The notes under the pieces were generated by a model, which was not told where the DNA came from, made no database searches, and saw only the letters and a program-made list of their open reading frames with translations. A DNA stretch of 13,803 nt, taken from contig JACQWU010000151.1 of the NCBI GenBank assembly GCA_016209155.1, forward strand, positions 1 to 13,803, given 5' to 3'. A program made the position numbers and the translations under genes. Each line of letters begins with the position of its first letter. Within the stretch, counting starts at the first letter, position 1. Below, one piece after another: positions 1,618 to 13,803 of this stretch. This DNA is from Candidatus Desantisiibacteriota bacterium. GTDB taxonomy: Bacteria; JACRDZ01.

Positions 1618-3582
1618 TCAACGGCCTCCGCGATCCTTTTCCGGTGGATAATCAGGTTTAGCGCTTTCCCATGTAATCGAGGTTTCACAGTTGTCCTCGC
1701 CAAGAACGGACTCTAAATTATCAGAGTATTGGGCATTCCCGGCATTAAGCTCCCAGTCTTCATTAAAGTACAAAGAGAGCGGCCCAAATAAGAGCGGCGG
1801 TTTTGGTTGAAATTCAGGAGTTTTGAGATTGAAATCTTTATCTTGCTCATCTGTTGTGGTTCCATTTACCGTCGTAGTTTCAGTTTTTACATGTAATCCG
1901 TATTGTTTAGTCATGATCAGACTGCAATCAAGTCGTCGATCAGCAATATTAATGATTCCGTTGAAAGATAATGTTTCATCCGGCATAGAACTGACATTAA
2001 AGTTTCCGGCACCATCCCAGGTCTCAGTATATGTTGTGTTCCCTTCAGTTTTCGACAATGAGCCAGAGGCGGAATATCCTATATTGAATTCCTTCTTGTT
2101 GGTTACAAATATGAATGGCCATTGTGGTTCTGGTTTATCATCAGGACTTAGACGATAACCGCTGACGAAAGCACGAATGTCGATTTCGATGTCTGCAGAA
2201 CGCAGAAGCTTGCCGCCAATCGAGCGGTTGATATGAAAAGTTACGCGCCAGCGGGTAAGATGAGCAACATTACTGTACCGGCCGCCCAGCCACACTTGAA
2301 CCAATCCGGTTTCACGCGGTGGTTGTTTGAAATCGACTTTTATATTGCCTGCCCGCCATTTGTTGATTTTCAATTCATCAAAGCTGGTTAAACGTGGATC
2401 ACCTACCATGCTGAGTTCTGGCTCAGAAGGCTTTTGTGTTTCACTTCCAATGCGGACATGACCTTCGATCTTTCCAAATTCTCCCTGAATCTGCATTTCC
2501 TGATTGATCTCATCAATTGAGAGATATTGAATAGTAGGCCGCAAAGCGTTAATAAATGCTCCACTGTTACCATAGAGCATATCAACTTGAGATATACTAC
2601 TTTTGTCTACACCAGTAAATAGGCCTTGATGAATAAGATATGCGTTTACCTCATCAATCCCATATGGACGCATAAGCGGTTCTGTATCCAGGCCAGACCA
2701 TGAGCCTGATATGTGATTGGTTCCTAACATTAACTCAAAAAAATCCTGGGCCGAACCTACCATCGTATTCGCAAGAGGTGAACCTTCCCAGCCAATAACA
2801 AGACCAGCACCAGCACTTTGTAAAGGATCAATCCATTCAGCCAGATTAATACCTGTTACATTTAAATAAACTATACTTTCATCCGGGAACGACCAGCCAT
2901 AATCCCTGATAAACTTAGGAGTTATTGCAAAGCATTGACGGCTGCCCTGATAACCATCTTCCGTCCAAAATGGAGCAAAAGCATAGATTAATCTATCGGC
3001 ATTAAGATCAGCCTCAAATTCTTTATTCAGAGCCGCCCCGGTCTTCGCCCCGGTTAGTGTGCATATCCCATGAATTGTGCCTTCAGGGGTTTCCATGAAA
3101 CCACCTGAACCGGTGATAAAGAAAACACCATCGCCATTAACAGCTTTAAGTCCATCTACATCGCAGACCTTTGGGTAAAAATCCGAATTCGGGCCTATAT
3201 CAACCAAAGAGAAACCCAAGCCTTTTGCTATTCGCCCAATGCGGTCTATTGAGTCTTTGTCCACCCAGTTTTCCGTAACATGATTGAAATTTATGACAGG
3301 AAGACTCGGCCACATATTCATCAATCGAAATTGGTCACCAGTAACAATAGGACCCTCTTCATAATTCACTGATCCGGTCAGACTGGTCACTGAGCTCTGA
3401 AGCAATTCTGGCAATGGTTTTGAAACTAAATCATCGGCCTTTTTTACTCGATTTAATGTTGTATCAAAATTATTTATAATGAGCAGTTTTCGTCCATCTG
3501 TGAAAACTGCCCAGGCACAGGAAGATGCAGAAGTGTATCCTACCTCGTAGAAGGCCGTCTGTTTTTTTAAGAATTTCACCAT
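1618..3582 (-). CDS. Body of an interrupted exported protein, possible degenerate caspase-like fold
   Basis: A 654-codon frame with no family I can name firmly. The same frame continues upstream without any other stop, through 13 codons and one TAA (3622-3624), into the lipoprotein signal peptide at 3906. No Shine-Dalgarno precedes the ATG at 3582. I therefore read it as the body of one gene broken by a nonsense codon. Residues about 120-290 follow the layout of C25/CHAT-like (clan CD) proteins: GVFFITGSGG (152-161), CFAITPKFI (217-225), SIVYLNVTG (236-244) and GAGLVIGWEG (258-267) before a FFELMLG segment. The expected catalytic His and Cys positions appear as Ser/Gly and Thr. Residues from about 370 on look beta-rich and rich in Thr, Asn and Gly, as in extracellular proteins. 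G+C is visibly higher than in the neighbours, which suggests separate ancestry. The fold assignment is an inference. Confidence 0.6.
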   Translation of the reverse strand: MVKFLKKQTAFYEVGYTSASSCAWAVFTDGRKLLIINNFDTTLNRVKKADDLVSKPLPELLQSSVTSLTGSVNYEEGPIVTGDQFRLMNMWPSLPVINFNHVTENWVDKDSIDRIGRIAKGLGFSLVDIGPNSDFYPKVCDVDGLKAVNGDGVFFITGSGGFMETPEGTIHGICTLTGAKTGAALNKEFEADLNADRLIYAFAPFWTEDGYQGSRQCFAITPKFIRDYGWSFPDESIVYLNVTGINLAEWIDPLQSAGAGLVIGWEGSPLANTMVGSAQDFFELMLGTNHISGSWSGLDTEPLMRPYGIDEVNAYLIHQGLFTGVDKSSISQVDMLYGNSGAFINALRPTIQYLSIDEINQEMQIQGEFGKIEGHVRIGSETQKPSEPELSMVGDPRLTSFDELKINKWRAGNIKVDFKQPPRETGLVQVWLGGRYSNVAHLTRWRVTFHINRSIGGKLLRSADIEIDIRAFVSGYRLSPDDKPEPQWPFIFVTNKKEFNIGYSASGSLSKTEGNTTYTETWDGAGNFNVSSMPDETLSFNGIINIADRRLDCSLIMTKQYGLHVKTETTTVNGTTTDEQDKDFNLKTPEFQPKPPLLFGPLSLYFNEDWELNAGNAQYSDNLESVLGEDNCETSITWESAKPDYPPEKDRGGR

Positions 3583-7505: not shown

Positions 7506-10500
7506 TTAATAACCGCCTGCTCCTGTTGTAAAATACCATATAGGCCCTTCGGAAATATATTCCCCATCAGACGCATTAACTTTCCATGCATAAGTTGTAA
7601 AAGGTAATAAAGTTAATGAAAGATTTGTATTTTGAATCGTACCTTCATAATCTATTACTCCATTACCGAAATTATTAATATGCCCGACGCCAATCGTGTA
7701 ATAAACTGTATCCCCTAAATCCGGATCTCCACCTAACCATGATAAATTAATAGTGTTAGTCAGAGAAATAAAATAGTTCGAAGGAGATGGATTGTATGGC
7801 GTATACGGTGGATTATTACCTGCATAAAACTGACCTGTAGTAAAATGCCATACTGGTCCGGCGAACACGTTTCCATGATCATCTTTTGCAACAATATACC
7901 ATTTATATGATGTATTTTCAATTAAGGTTTCTGGAATATAATAGCTTGTCCCTGATACCCATCCTCTATAAGGTATAGCTGCTGCTGATTCAAGTCCAAA
8001 ATAAACATCAAATGTTACAGGATCACCTTCAGGATCGCCTCCATCCCAATAAAGATACATAGAAGTAGGTGCCCCTGTGTTTCCATCCCATGGATATGGA
8101 TCTTTTACATAAGGTGGATTGTTGGTGAAATTACCTGTTGTAAATCTCCAGACCGGACCTACGAATTCATTATTATGATTATCCCTTGCAATAACCTGCC
8201 ACAAATATTGAGTGCCTTTAGCTAAATCGTTAGGGATATTATAGTATGGAGAATAAAGTCCTGTAACTAAGGTCGGTAAAGGTAACGTTGTTCCCATGCG
8301 AATTTCATATATTATAGGATCACCCTCAGGATCCCCGCCTTCCCAGCTTAAATCCTGCGCTAATGAAACTTCAGATTGCCAATCCCATGGATATGGATTT
8401 CTTGCATATGGAGGGTTATTAGTAAAGTTCCCTGTTGTGAATTGCCACATTGGACCCATTGTGGTATTTCCATTATTGTCTTTTACAACTACCTGCCAAT
8501 TATATGTTGTACCTGGCAATAAATCAAAAGGCAGCGGGAAAAACTGGCTGTATAAAGGTCCATATTTTGTGAGCGGCCAGGTTCCGGATTTCCCAAAGTA
8601 AACCTCATAAGTAAGAGGATCTCCCTCAGGATCTCCGGCCATCCAGCTTAAATCAACTGTTACTGAAACCTCAGATTGCCAATCCCATGGATATGGCGTA
8701 TTTACCCATGGTGGATTATTCATTTGTCTGCCGGTTGTAAATGACCATACAGGGCTTTTTACTCCATCCGGATGTGAGGTATCTTTTGCTTTAACAAACC
8801 AGTAATAAACAGTTCCCTGAGCTAAACCATCAACCCAATATGACGTATAATCATAAGTATACCCGTGAATAATAGGTGCTGATTCCGGATTGGGTGAAGT
8901 ACTGATATAAATTTCATAATTTACCGGATCCCATTCCGGATCTCCGCCTGCCCACATAAAATTATAAGCTGTTGGAACATTTATTTGTCCCTGGAATGGA
9001 TTTGGTCCGCTCGGGTAAAATGGAGGTTGATTTCCTCCTCCAAAATCACCTGTTTTGAAATTCCATAATTTACTTTCTACTTCACCGCCATCAGTTCCAT
9101 CCGGTTTTATTGATTTCGCAACTATTTTCCAGACATAAGATGTGTTTTTTTCCAGCATTGGAGTAGGATAAGAACGGACATTTGTTTCAGTTTTAAATTC
9201 AAGTATGTATCCGGCTTTTGCCATCCACACTTCATAGCTTACATAATCACCGGGGTCAGGATCTCCGCCATCCCATCCTAAATTTATAAATAGCGGTTGA
9301 TTTATAGCCCAATCCCATGGATTTGGATTACCGACCCATGGCATTCCATTGACCATGTTCCCGCCTGTTTTAAAACTCCAAATTTCACTCTTTGATACAG
9401 CACCGCTTTTGTCTTTTGCTGTAACTCGCCAATAATACCATGTCTCAGGATTAAGTCTTCGATCTATATATGCGTTTGGCATTGTTAATCCATTTATACG
9501 TATAAATGGAGTTGTATCTACCATAGATATATTTTGATCTAAAGCGATATCGTAAGTTACAAAATCATTCATGTCCGGATCGCCACCAAACCAGCTTAAG
9601 TTTGGATTAGTTGGAACCCCAAATTGTCCCACCCATGGATTTGGATTTGATGGTATAAATGGAGGATTATTTCCTGTCCCGTAACTGCCGGTTGTGAATG
9701 ACCAGATTGGACCTCTAACTTCAGGGTTAACATAATCAAATGCAACAACATACCAGAAATAAGTTGTTCCCGGTTCTAAATTTATCCAGAAAGTAGTGTT
9801 ATTTGAATATGAACTACCAAAATATCCAATATTTGCAGCGGTTGTTCCAAGATAAAGGTCATAATCTAAAACATCGCCATTTGGGTCACCGCAATTCCAT
9901 GTAAGCATAAATGAAGTTGGAACATTCATTTGTCCTACCCATGGATTTGGCATATTAGGGATAAATGGAGGATTGTTACCGCCTGTACCACCGCTTCCGC
10001 CTGTTTTAAATGACCAGATTGGACTTTCCATTCTTCCGCCAAATGCGCCATTAGGCTTTTTAGATTTAGCTATAATTTTCCAAACATATCTTGTCCATGG
10101 CTTAAGTGCCTGTGGAGTAAAGGATGGATACATTGTTTCCATTTTAAAGTTTGGAGCATAAGGTGTGCCTTCTTCGTCAAAATATACTTCATAGCTTACT
10201 ATATCGCCGTTAGGATCACCGCCATCCCAATTTAAAGTTATATAAATCGGCTGCCAATCTGCCCAATCCCAGGGATTTGGATTACCTATCCATGGAGGCA
10301 TTTCACCATCTGTTGCAAAGTTCCCGGTTTTAAAACTCCAAATTTCTCCTTTAGTTTTTGCACCTGACTTATCCGTTGCAGTAACCTGCCAGTAAACCCA
10401 GGTGTTTGGTTCAAGAGGCTTATCAATAAATAGACTTGTACTTGTAAGCTCCCCGCTTTTAAATTCCGGAGTTCCATTTTTTACATTATCAAAATTTTTA

Positions 10501-11816
10501 TCACCTACAACTTCGTAAGTAACAAAATCACCGGGATCAGGATCTCCGCCAAACCAGTTTAGACTTAGATTAATCGGAGCATTTTGATCCCCGTTAAACG
10601 GTTGCGGGTTACCCGGCATAAATGGAGGATTATTTTTAGTATTATCATAAGGACTACCTGTGACAAATGTCCATACCGGTCCTTCTGTTGAATGTCCCTG
10701 GTCATCTTTGACAACTACTTTCCAGACATATGCTGAATTTGGTTCTAATGCTGAATCATAAAAATTAGTTATCTGTGAATTTTCAAGAAGTAATGTGGTT
10801 GGATTAGTAGCTGTATCAGTTTGCTTGTTTAAATATAAACTACAAGATAGAGTATCATATATAAATGTGGTATTATAATTAATAGTTGGACTATATGGAT
10901 TACCTATTGAATCATATAAATAGGTTGTATCAGTTGTCACAACTGTACTCACATCCGGATCCCCAATTTCCCAGCTTATAAATAATTTAGTCGGTTTATT
11001 TCTATCCCCGTTAAATGGGTCTGGATTAAAAGGCGGATAAGGCGGTTGATTTGCCGTAATTGTACTATCATTTCCGGTAGTAAAGAACCATATTGGTCCA
11101 ATACTTTTATTTCCATTTAAATCAACAGCTTCAACAAACCAATAATAAGTTGAGCTTTGATCAAGATCCTCAAGATCGATCAATGGTGCAAGGGCAGTAT
11201 AATTTGGCGTTGAAGTATTAAGATTTTTGTTTTTTCCAATATAGATTAAATATTTGACCTGATCACCCGGATCCGAATCTCCGCCACTCCAGAATAATTT
11301 TAAATTTTTGTTGGGTTGATCTTTAGCTCCAATTGCCGGATATGGAAAATTTGGAATATAAGGAGGAGTATTTCCAGAGCCCGTCCCTGTGTAGCCAAAA
11401 GTTGTAAAATCCCAGACTGCGCTCGATGTTATTTTTCCTTGTTTAACTACATCAACACGCCAAAAATAATGGGATGCCATTTGTAAAACAGCTTGACAAG
11501 AAGTTGATGTGGAAGGACCAAAAACCTTTTTTTTTTGTTTTTTATTATCTTTTTCTAAATATACTGTATATTGATAAGTGGTTGTTCCATTAATCATCTC
11601 ATCAAACCAATCCGTATTACTGCTGCCGCCTTCCCATGTTAAAGTTAAACTGGTTTGCTGTTCTGCCGCATGATTTGGCGGATATTTAAGGTTTGGTGCT
11701 CCCGGTCCGCTTCCTCCGCTTCCTCCGCTGCTATTTTTATTACTTGGACCGCATGCTAAAGAGCAACTAAGGATTAAAATAATTAAAAATGCAAATAAAT
11801 TAAATATTTTTTTCAT
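7506..11816 (-). CDS. Giant surface lipoprotein with 13 fibronectin-III-like repeats
   Basis: A 1436-residue protein. Residues 1-22 are a lipoprotein signal peptide (KK, then FNLFAFLIILIL, lipobox SLAC with C22), followed by a Gly/Ser tether (28-38). The rest is 13 tandem modules of about 100 residues: 41-140, 149-248, 256-387, 396-498, 506-606, 615-710, 717-818, 824-922, 930-1029, 1034-1129, 1134-1228, 1233-1328 and 1335-1432. The common plan is NNPP...P-P-P...LxW-GGDP-GD...Y-VY-G...TxYxWxVxAxD...GPxWxFxTG, which is the strand pattern of FN3 domains. The Asp-rich GGDPxxGD loop suggests calcium or structural turns (inference). Module 3 has a roughly 30-residue insert. No catalytic domain or anchor beyond the lipid is seen. 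The role is probably as a surface scaffold, adhesin or ligand-binding stalk. GGAGG with 7-nt spacing supports the ATG at 11816. An A10 run occurs near codon 95. Confidence 0.88.
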   Translation of the reverse strand: MKKIFNLFAFLIILILSCSLACGPSNKNSSGGSGGSGPGAPNLKYPPNHAAEQQTSLTLTWEGGSSNTDWFDEMINGTTTYQYTVYLEKDNKKQKKKVFGPSTSTSCQAVLQMASHYFWRVDVVKQGKITSSAVWDFTTFGYTGTGSGNTPPYIPNFPYPAIGAKDQPNKNLKLFWSGGDSDPGDQVKYLIYIGKNKNLNTSTPNYTALAPLIDLEDLDQSSTYYWFVEAVDLNGNKSIGPIWFFTTGNDSTITANQPPYPPFNPDPFNGDRNKPTKLFISWEIGDPDVSTVVTTDTTYLYDSIGNPYSPTINYNTTFIYDTLSCSLYLNKQTDTATNPTTLLLENSQITNFYDSALEPNSAYVWKVVVKDDQGHSTEGPVWTFVTGSPYDNTKNNPPFMPGNPQPFNGDQNAPINLSLNWFGGDPDPGDFVTYEVVGDKNFDNVKNGTPEFKSGELTSTSLFIDKPLEPNTWVYWQVTATDKSGAKTKGEIWSFKTGNFATDGEMPPWIGNPNPWDWADWQPIYITLNWDGGDPNGDIVSYEVYFDEEGTPYAPNFKMETMYPSFTPQALKPWTRYVWKIIAKSKKPNGAFGGRMESPIWSFKTGGSGGTGGNNPPFIPNMPNPWVGQMNVPTSFMLTWNCGDPNGDVLDYDLYLGTTAANIGYFGSSYSNNTTFWINLEPGTTYFWYVVAFDYVNPEVRGPIWSFTTGSYGTGNNPPFIPSNPNPWVGQFGVPTNPNLSWFGGDPDMNDFVTYDIALDQNISMVDTTPFIRINGLTMPNAYIDRRLNPETWYYWRVTAKDKSGAVSKSEIWSFKTGGNMVNGMPWVGNPNPWDWAINQPLFINLGWDGGDPDPGDYVSYEVWMAKAGYILEFKTETNVRSYPTPMLEKNTSYVWKIVAKSIKPDGTDGGEVESKLWNFKTGDFGGGNQPPFYPSGPNPFQGQINVPTAYNFMWAGGDPEWDPVNYEIYISTSPNPESAPIIHGYTYDYTSYWVDGLAQGTVYYWFVKAKDTSHPDGVKSPVWSFTTGRQMNNPPWVNTPYPWDWQSEVSVTVDLSWMAGDPEGDPLTYEVYFGKSGTWPLTKYGPLYSQFFPLPFDLLPGTTYNWQVVVKDNNGNTTMGPMWQFTTGNFTNNPPYARNPYPWDWQSEVSLAQDLSWEGGDPEGDPIIYEIRMGTTLPLPTLVTGLYSPYYNIPNDLAKGTQYLWQVIARDNHNNEFVGPVWRFTTGNFTNNPPYVKDPYPWDGNTGAPTSMYLYWDGGDPEGDPVTFDVYFGLESAAAIPYRGWVSGTSYYIPETLIENTSYKWYIVAKDDHGNVFAGPVWHFTTGQFYAGNNPPYTPYNPSPSNYFISLTNTINLSWLGGDPDLGDTVYYTIGVGHINNFGNGVIDYEGTIQNTNLSLTLLPFTTYAWKVNASDGEYISEGPIWYFTTGAGGY
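7521..11696 (-). repeat. Thirteen tandem FN3-like coding repeats, about 300 bp each
   Basis: Every module ends in W-x-F-x-TG and starts with (N)NPP or MPPW. Modules 10, 11 and 12 are each other's closest relatives. Near-identical DNA (TTCAGATTGCCAATCCCATGG context) recurs at 8364-8396 and 8664-8696, exactly 300 bp apart with one mismatch in 33. Modules 4-5-6 and 7-8-9 correspond one to one, marking an older three-module duplication. Details are in the findings. Confidence 0.85.
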
Positions 11817-12115: not shown

Positions 12116-13803
12116 ATGATGGAAAAAGCACCTCCGGAAAAACCTCCGCAACGAGGTAAAAATGGTAAATCAATAAAAAAAATATTAGGACCTGTCCCTA
12201 ATCTTGAAGAATATGTTCTTTCTGACTGGTGGCGTGGAATTTTTAATTCTCTTTATTTAAAAACCGATGCTGATGTTGTTGATGATAAAAATATTACCAG
12301 CCATGAGATTGAATTATTTGCAAATATATTAAAACTTTCTCCTGATGATAAAGTACTTGATTTATGCTGCGGACAGGGACGGCATGCATTAGAACTTGCT
12401 TCACGCGGATTTAAAAATGTGGAAGGTCTGGATAGATCCCATTATTTAATACAGAAAGCCAAATCATATGCCAGGAAAGAAGGTTTCAACATTAAATTCA
12501 GGGAAGGAGATGCAAGAGACCTGCCTTTTCCTCCTGATGCTTTTGATGCAATTATGATTCTGGGAAATAGTTTTGGATATTTTGAAACAAGTAATGATGA
12601 TTTAAGGATTCTAAAAGAAATATTTAAAGTATTAAAACCATGGGGAAGGCTGATAATTGATGTTTCAGACGGTAAATATTTGAAAAAAAATTTTCAGCCG
12701 AGGTCATGGGAATGGATAGATAAAAAACTTTTTGTGTGCAGAGAAAGATCTCTTTCCCATGATGGACAACGGCTCATATCGCGTGAAGTTATTACCAACG
12801 TGGAAAAAGGCGTGATAGCTGATCAGTTCTACGCCGAGAGATTATATACTAAAGATAATTTAACCGAATTAATTAAAGATGCAGGGTTTAAAGATTGTAT
12901 TTTCCATGGAGAAATATCCACAAATTCTCAGAGAAAACAGGATCTGGGAATGATGGAAAAACGTATCATTGTTACTGCAACTGCAAGAAAAGAATGGACT
13001 CCGCTTAAGAAAAAGCCAAAAGAAATAGTAAAAAATGTAATGGTTATTTTAGGTGATCCGGCAAAAAAAGATTTGTTAAAACCTTCATATGTATTTGACG
13101 ATGATGATTTTTATACAATTGATCAGCTAAAATCCGCGTTACGGAGATTATCAAATTACCATTTTAATTATTTAAATAATCATGATACACTTATTCTTGA
13201 TATGAAAAAAATATACGGTAAAATAGATTTTGTGCTTAATTTATGTGATGAGGGTTTTAATAATGATCCGAGAAAAGAATTGCATATTCCCGCGCTGCTT
13301 GAAAAACTTGATATCCCCTATACAGGATCAGGTCCGCAATGTCTTGCATATTGTTATGATAAATCACTTGTCAGAGGAATAGCAAAAGAAATGGGTATTC
13401 CTGTCCCCAAAGCTTTTTTTATCAAACCTGATGATACAACCTTTGAACTGCCGTTTGGTTTTTCGGTATTTGTAAAACCCAATTTCGGCGATTCAAGTTT
13501 CGGGATAAACCAGAGAAGTGTTGCTAATAATCTTGAAGAATTATTAAATATTATTTCAGAAATCAGAGAAAGTTTTGGATATGATAAACCTATATTAGTT
13601 GAAGAATATCTTACAGGAAAAGATCTAAGCGTGGGGATTATAGGTAATCCTCCCACTTCGTATAATGTTTTACCCATTGTAGAGGAAGACTATTCCGTTC
13701 TTCCCGCTAATTTACCTAAAATATGCGGATATGAAGCTAAATGGTGTCCTGATTCTCCATATTGGAATATTAAATCTATCCCTGCTGATTTACCGGATGA
13801 AAA
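12116..13803 (+). CDS. Fusion: class I SAM methyltransferase + D-Ala-D-Ala-ligase-like ATP-grasp (3' truncated)
   Basis: The frame is open from ATG 12116 (AGGAG 6 nt upstream) to the window end: 562 codons, no stop. Residues about 25-295 form a class I methyltransferase: SAM motif I DLCCGQGRH (82-90), the acidic residue after strand 2 in EGLDRS (103-108), GDARDLPF (131-138), DAFDAIMI (142-149) and VLKPWGRLIID (173-183). A Lys-rich linker (about 293-307) leads to a second domain beginning VMVILG (308-313). This domain matches Ddl: DFVLNLCDEG (371-380), IPYTGSGPQC (400-409), DK (415-416), VFVKPNFGDSSFG (451-463), VEEYLTGKDLSV (495-506) and GYEAKW (538-543). The Mg-binding D...N-x-N end lies beyond the window. 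It probably methylates and ligates related small-molecule or peptide substrates in the cytoplasm, but the substrate is unknown. The fusion makes a plain cell-wall Ddl role unlikely. It is probably driven by the consensus promoter at 11987. Confidence 0.87.
   Translation, partial: MMEKAPPEKPPQRGKNGKSIKKILGPVPNLEEYVLSDWWRGIFNSLYLKTDADVVDDKNITSHEIELFANILKLSPDDKVLDLCCGQGRHALELASRGFKNVEGLDRSHYLIQKAKSYARKEGFNIKFREGDARDLPFPPDAFDAIMILGNSFGYFETSNDDLRILKEIFKVLKPWGRLIIDVSDGKYLKKNFQPRSWEWIDKKLFVCRERSLSHDGQRLISREVITNVEKGVIADQFYAERLYTKDNLTELIKDAGFKDCIFHGEISTNSQRKQDLGMMEKRIIVTATARKEWTPLKKKPKEIVKNVMVILGDPAKKDLLKPSYVFDDDDFYTIDQLKSALRRLSNYHFNYLNNHDTLILDMKKIYGKIDFVLNLCDEGFNNDPRKELHIPALLEKLDIPYTGSGPQCLAYCYDKSLVRGIAKEMGIPVPKAFFIKPDDTTFELPFGFSVFVKPNFGDSSFGINQRSVANNLEELLNIISEIRESFGYDKPILVEEYLTGKDLSVGIIGNPPTSYNVLPIVEEDYSVLPANLPKICGYEAKWCPDSPYWNIKSIPADLPDE

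Follow-up and report, generated by a model that had tools for sequence, protein, structure and literature searches.

What does a cell make with a single polypeptide in which a class I SAM methyltransferase is fused to an ATP-grasp ligase resembling the D-Ala-D-Ala ligases (Ddl)? A gene for such a protein begins near the end of the stretch of DNA analysed here (13,803 nucleotides from Candidatus Desantisiibacteriota, termed the window), which is an entire contig (G000:C317) of a draft genome that is 79% complete.

The fusion gene and its continuation on a second contig

The open reading frame at window positions 12116-13801 (plus strand) is free of stops over 562 codons and runs off the contig end. 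These are the 5' codons of the fusion gene (12116..13803), whose 3' end lies on another contig (G000:C75:1-290). A sequence-only reading of the window had advised extending the gene in the 3' direction to look for the Mg-binding motif. A search of the same genome with a homologue's C-terminal region located the C-terminus of the fusion on bases 3-290 of that contig, in frame. The continuation is 78% identical to the homologue used as query, carries DYARFDWRLDSKGNPKLLEVNPNPGWCWDGH and includes the Mg-binding block RFDWRLDSKGNPKLLEVNPNP. The two contigs do not overlap, and comparison with homologues suggests a gap of about 14 bases and a complete protein of about 664 residues.

In the truncated protein, Pfam places a methyltransferase core at residues ~75-185 (Methyltransf_25 at 80-177, 8.6e-22) and the start of Dala_Dala_lig_C at residues 424-543 (1e-9). 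Pfam, an alignment to NmbA (9ri2) over residues 36-260 and the predicted fold of a homologue's half together assign residues ~36-290 (12221..12985, plus strand, as all features that follow in this paragraph) to the methyltransferase and its cap region. The SAM-binding motif I, VLDLCCGQGRH, is evident in this half (residues ~79-90, 12350..12385), and GNSFGYF at the motif IV/V position (residues 150-156, 12563..12583) is invariant or nearly so among the fusions. A linker of residues ~291-303 (12986..13024), delimited in the predicted structure of the homologue L031, leads to the Ddl-like ATP-grasp half (residues 304-562 of ~664, 13025..13803), which is supported by Pfam and by a predicted Ddl fold over residues 304-642. 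Here we find CDEG (residues 377-380, 13244..13255) where true Ddl enzymes have LHG, PYTGSG (residues 401-406), VKPNFGDSS with the ATP-binding lysine equivalent to K144 of DdlB (residues 453-461, 13472..13498), VEEYLTG (residues 495-501) and GYEAKW (residues 538-543, 13727..13744), in which DdlB K215 is retained and Y216 is replaced by Trp in the alignment to DdlB. The initial view that one frame encodes a SAM methyltransferase and a Ddl-like ATP-grasp domain is therefore borne out by the reading frame, Pfam and the homologues, and motif I, PYTGSG, VKPNFGDSS and VEEYLTG had been placed correctly in the translated frame.

Two other genes of the window stand out. Positions 7506-11816 (minus strand, transcribed divergently from the fusion gene) encode a protein of 1436 residues whose N-terminus resembles that of a lipoprotein (a hydrophobic segment and then a Cys) and which contains many repeats resembling fibronectin type III. 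A 654-residue protein encoded at 1618-3582 (minus strand) has zero Pfam matches at 1e-5.

Spread, history and gene context of the fusion

A homologue scan with one genome per species yielded 225 stretches that encode a relative, and the best 80 were retained. In these best 80 of 225 both halves lie in one frame, with 64-76% identity and a length of 640-680 aa, and the methyltransferase and ligase Pfam domains were both matched in 65/65 homologues scanned. The sequence-only reading had been concerned about a frameshift or join near position 13020, and about homologues that exist as two genes everywhere. There is no frameshift or mis-join near 13020, because all 65 scanned homologues and all of the best 80 loci carry both halves, and the second concern is contradicted by the same fused loci. 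An artefact of assembly, a frameshift or a mis-join between the halves is thus ruled out by the in-frame fusion in the best 80 of the 225 relatives. Divergent fusions with 50-51% identity have an unchanged architecture.

The bacterial hosts among the best 80 of 225 include Atribacterota, Planctomycetota, Thermodesulfobacteriota, Actinomycetota, Nitrospinota, Omnitrophota, Thermotogota and others, and the archaeal hosts include Methanomicrobiales, Jordarchaeia, Methanophagales, Altiarchaeota and others; we take most of these lineages to come from anaerobic habitats. The fusion is present in 28 of 386 sampled bacterial genomes (mostly one per family) and in 34/40 genomes of the Methanoculleus family. 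For two copies of that family (G403:C1:1842152-1843735 and G406:C458:1963-3333) the match begins after residues 113 and 183, respectively, and so lacks SAM motif I; gene decay, a frameshift or a contig end could account for this. In another genome (G128, L142:1468-2394) a homologue with 65% identity to the methyltransferase half stops after 309 codons, and uvrA is the next gene. This locus appears to have lost its ligase half, which suggests that the methyltransferase half can persist without the ligase. On plasmids no fusion was found, only separate ATP-grasp homologues in rhizobia.

In a quick tree of the fusions, to which mis-binned contigs can add noise, archaeal sequences occupy several separate places. 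Methanomicrobiales stand beside Desulfobacteraceae (SH-aLRT 92), Altiarchaeota beside deltaproteobacteria (SH-aLRT 87) and Methanophagales beside Thermodesulfobacterium (SH-aLRT 83), and Jordarchaeia and Freyarchaeota form a group of their own (SH-aLRT 99). This scattering fits a history in which the gene may have been exchanged repeatedly between bacteria and archaea.

No neighbour of the fusion gene is conserved across loci; the widest specific cluster comprises 6 loci, if generic ABC ATPases are left aside. Neither a protease nor a transporter recurs beside the gene. Small open reading frames (20-90 aa) within 1.5 kb of the fusion are not conserved across phyla or outside Methanomicrobiales, and one is conserved beside the fusion within a single archaeal order only. 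The fusion gene thus seems to travel and work alone. Genome-wide co-occurrence was absent for BshC (7/28 fusion genomes versus 75/386 overall, p = 0.46), for the aminomutase KamA (2/28 versus 84/386, p = 0.057, tending towards depletion) and for genes that combine a GNAT with a histone-deacetylase-like domain (GNAT-HDAC; 1/7 genomes, p = 0.41). The anticipated peptide-carrier gene does not occur at the fusion loci, nor does a conserved neighbour of any other kind. Among anti-phage defence models, only the generic methyltransferase fold matches mad2, not the part specific to that model.

Nearest relatives of the two halves

The best sequence match of the methyltransferase half in the PDB is NmbA (9RI2), with 94 bits versus 67 for the next entry. 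The alignment covers residues 36-260 and thereby most of the cap region (E 7.7e-29 with a profile), at a similarity of ~28%. NmbA N-methylates bacillithiol at the cysteine nitrogen (PMC12719100). The two proteins are related class I SAM methyltransferases with related cap regions. However, NmbA is a stand-alone enzyme of ~260 aa that belongs with BshABC, whereas the fusion has 640-680 aa, does not co-occur with BshC and is present in archaea, among which none was found to have the bacillithiol pathway (PMC12719100). The methyltransferase half is therefore not an NmbA. The genome of the window itself has a BshC match (G000:C137:2-697) and may hence make bacillithiol.

In a fold search with the predicted half of a homologue (mean pLDDT 82), the methyltransferase resembles many small-molecule methyltransferases with Z of 20-23. 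The matches include TylM1, CypM, CgnL, GSMT, GNMT and NmbA (21.9) and are mostly N-directed; C- and O-methyltransferases fit this fold too. GSMT and GNMT (Z 20.4-21.6) share the small-molecule N-methyltransferase fold, but have ~20% identity, a weaker sequence match than NmbA and no attached ligase. The half matches the PIMT (PCMT) model marginally (0.0023). The cap contains many invariant charged residues (R209, R211, R223, E224, D236, E241, R273 and D276), which suggests a polar, perhaps zwitterionic substrate.

The ligase half (residues 304-642), compared through the predicted structure of L031 (mean pLDDT 84), matches Ddl enzymes with Z of 26-29.5 over the whole three-part fold. The ATP and Mg residues of DdlB (K97, K144, K215, R255, D257, E270 and N272) are retained in 9/9 aligned fusions, with the R-D-...-E-x-N set present in the fusion C-terminus. 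The E. coli DdlB positions that we take to recognise D-Ala behave differently in this alignment: at E15 the GGxSxE motif is absent from the nine fusions, CDEG stands at the LHG site, a Trp takes the place of Y216, and S281/L282 have become Gly and either His or Lys, while S150 is mostly retained. The best curated matches are Ddl and D-Ala-D-Lac models, and a full-length homologue scores under the NCBIfam cut-offs (TIGR01205, 130 versus 245.65 bits; NF002378, 132 versus 243). The ligase half shares the three-part fold and the ATP/Mg residues with DdlB and VanA (COG1181, TIGR01205). Unlike these enzymes, it has a methyltransferase attached, has lost the D-Ala residues, misses every curated cut-off, sits outside the Ddl clade and occurs in archaea without murein. 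We infer that it works like a Ddl, forming an acyl phosphate and then an amide at the expense of ATP, yet is not a Ddl, which agrees with the original description of a Ddl-like domain distinct from the stand-alone enzymes.

The nearest stand-alone relatives of the ligase half, at 34-36%, are the "A"-type ligases encoded in tandem ATP-grasp pairs (L004, L005, L007 and L019), which share with it the motifs NLCE, GKW/AKW and NPNP. These A-type ligases are not joined to a methyltransferase and occur as one of two ligases beside an aminomutase gene, whereas the fusion does not co-occur with KamA, and no KamA gene or second ATP-grasp gene adjoins it at the fusion loci. The cluster recurs: after a KamA-type aminomutase gene come a tandem pair of Ddl-like ATP-grasp genes at L004:1-3338, L005:3-3389, L007:3-3543 and L019:137-3268, and one such gene at L014:103-2403; it is also found in the phylum of the window's genome. 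In L007 a GNAT gene is added, and the protein it encodes is a homologue of the GNAT portion of a GNAT-HDAC fusion. The cluster looks like an uncharacterised pathway for a beta-amino-acid peptide. In genome G295 (L145:5227-8999) a GNAT-HDAC gene and a divergent fusion (50%) are arranged head to head. The GNAT and aminomutase genes that had been predicted as neighbours thus do occur beside the nearest stand-alone ligases, and in the form of GNAT-HDAC once beside a divergent fusion, but they do not accompany the fusion across genomes. These two adjacencies had hinted at a shared pathway with KamA and GNAT-HDAC; since fusion genomes are not enriched in either gene, we take the connection as ancestry and not as evidence of a pathway. 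An AU test rejected the grouping of the fusion with the A-type ligases, but with two rows omitted that the free tree places on that side, so this rejection carries no weight.

A proposed activity and its alternatives

Starting from the features established by computation (domain content, fusion, conservation, distribution, kept ATP/Mg residues and replaced D-Ala residues), we lean, by a little, towards a bifunctional enzyme of small-molecule biosynthesis that forms an amide and N-methylates this amide or one of its building blocks. The ligase half would activate a carboxylate as acyl phosphate with ATP and Mg and couple it to an amine or similar nucleophile, to give a dipeptide-like amide other than D-Ala-D-Ala. 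The methyltransferase half would methylate, with SAM as donor, either one building block or the amide made by the ligase, and a nitrogen is the most likely acceptor. Knowledge of the two families suggests N-methylation, an amide product, the order of the steps and the service of both halves to one product. For the last point the fusion itself is the evidence, since gene context gives no signal. As the gene has no constant companions, this pair of reactions probably suffices when starting from common metabolites. The earlier suggestion that one polypeptide makes and ligates a methylated amino acid or peptide fits this anatomy; its versions with a peptidoglycan precursor or a carrier gene are not borne out.

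A modified peptidoglycan precursor would call for a variant D-Ala-D-Ala or D-Ala-D-X cell-wall ligase with a methyltransferase attached. The full Ddl fold and the Ddl and D-Ala-D-Lac models as top curated matches are what such an enzyme would show, but the curated cut-offs are missed widely (130 versus 245.65 bits), E15, LHG, Y216 and S281/L282 of DdlB are replaced, and true Ddl sequences form one branch (SH-aLRT 100) that excludes the ligase half. Moreover, the genome of the window already has a separate Ddl with LHG, YEAKY and GMTNLSL (contig C40), and the fusion occurs almost throughout Methanoculleus as well as in other archaea without murein. With the D-Ala-recognising residues replaced and such archaea among the carriers, the protein is not a cell-wall Ddl, and we regard this explanation as very improbable. 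A different proposal is that a low-molecular-weight thiol is made or capped, with the ligase coupling a cysteine-type amino acid and the methyltransferase N-methylating it. The listed hosts, presumably mostly from anaerobic habitats, would agree with this. So would NmbA, which acts in this manner on bacillithiol, as the nearest solved relative (PMC12719100). However, this similarity is only ~28%, many other N-methyltransferases score equally high by fold, BshC is no more frequent in fusion genomes than expected (p = 0.46), and the fusion occurs in archaea, none of which was found with the bacillithiol pathway (PMC12719100), so that we consider a thiol product improbable.

The two enzyme types could also modify a peptide or protein, either in a RiPP-like pathway or by protein methylation and tailing. 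In graspetides, ATP-grasp enzymes and methyltransferases cooperate on peptides. Such systems, in which both enzymes act together (PMC8939145, PMC13001092), provide a precedent; the structural matches of the methyltransferase half also include CypM and CgnL. Against this, no 20-90 aa open reading frame within 1.5 kb is conserved outside Methanomicrobiales, neighbours, proteases and transporters do not recur at the fusion loci, the ligase fold is of the Ddl type and the PIMT match is marginal, which makes peptide modification a doubtful explanation with little weight. Finally, the halves might have separate jobs and be joined only for co-expression or stability, the methyltransferase acting for example on the product of another pathway. 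The surviving methyltransferase-only homologue in G128 is compatible with this, but across great evolutionary distances, through repeated transfers and in members with as little as 50% identity the halves have stayed joined, and we think separate jobs unlikely.

We found no description of a methyltransferase-Ddl-like fusion in the open-access papers searched, and a term search in the main text of a survey of archaeal fusions returned no such domain pair. Both halves come from known superfamilies; it is their combination that is without description in the open-access literature searched. With both activities on one chain and with culturable hosts, the product of the proposed bifunctional enzyme can be sought directly by expression or comparative metabolomics. 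Tentatively, and as a possibility that we hold below even, this single widely shared gene may make, without any other dedicated gene, a new N-methylated dipeptide-like metabolite or cofactor that would occur in many anaerobic bacteria and archaea and in nearly the whole Methanoculleus family. An enzyme that is conserved at 64-76% identity in both bacteria and archaea, seems to have passed between them several times and is carried by nearly all members of a cultured methanogen family points to an overlooked common metabolite.
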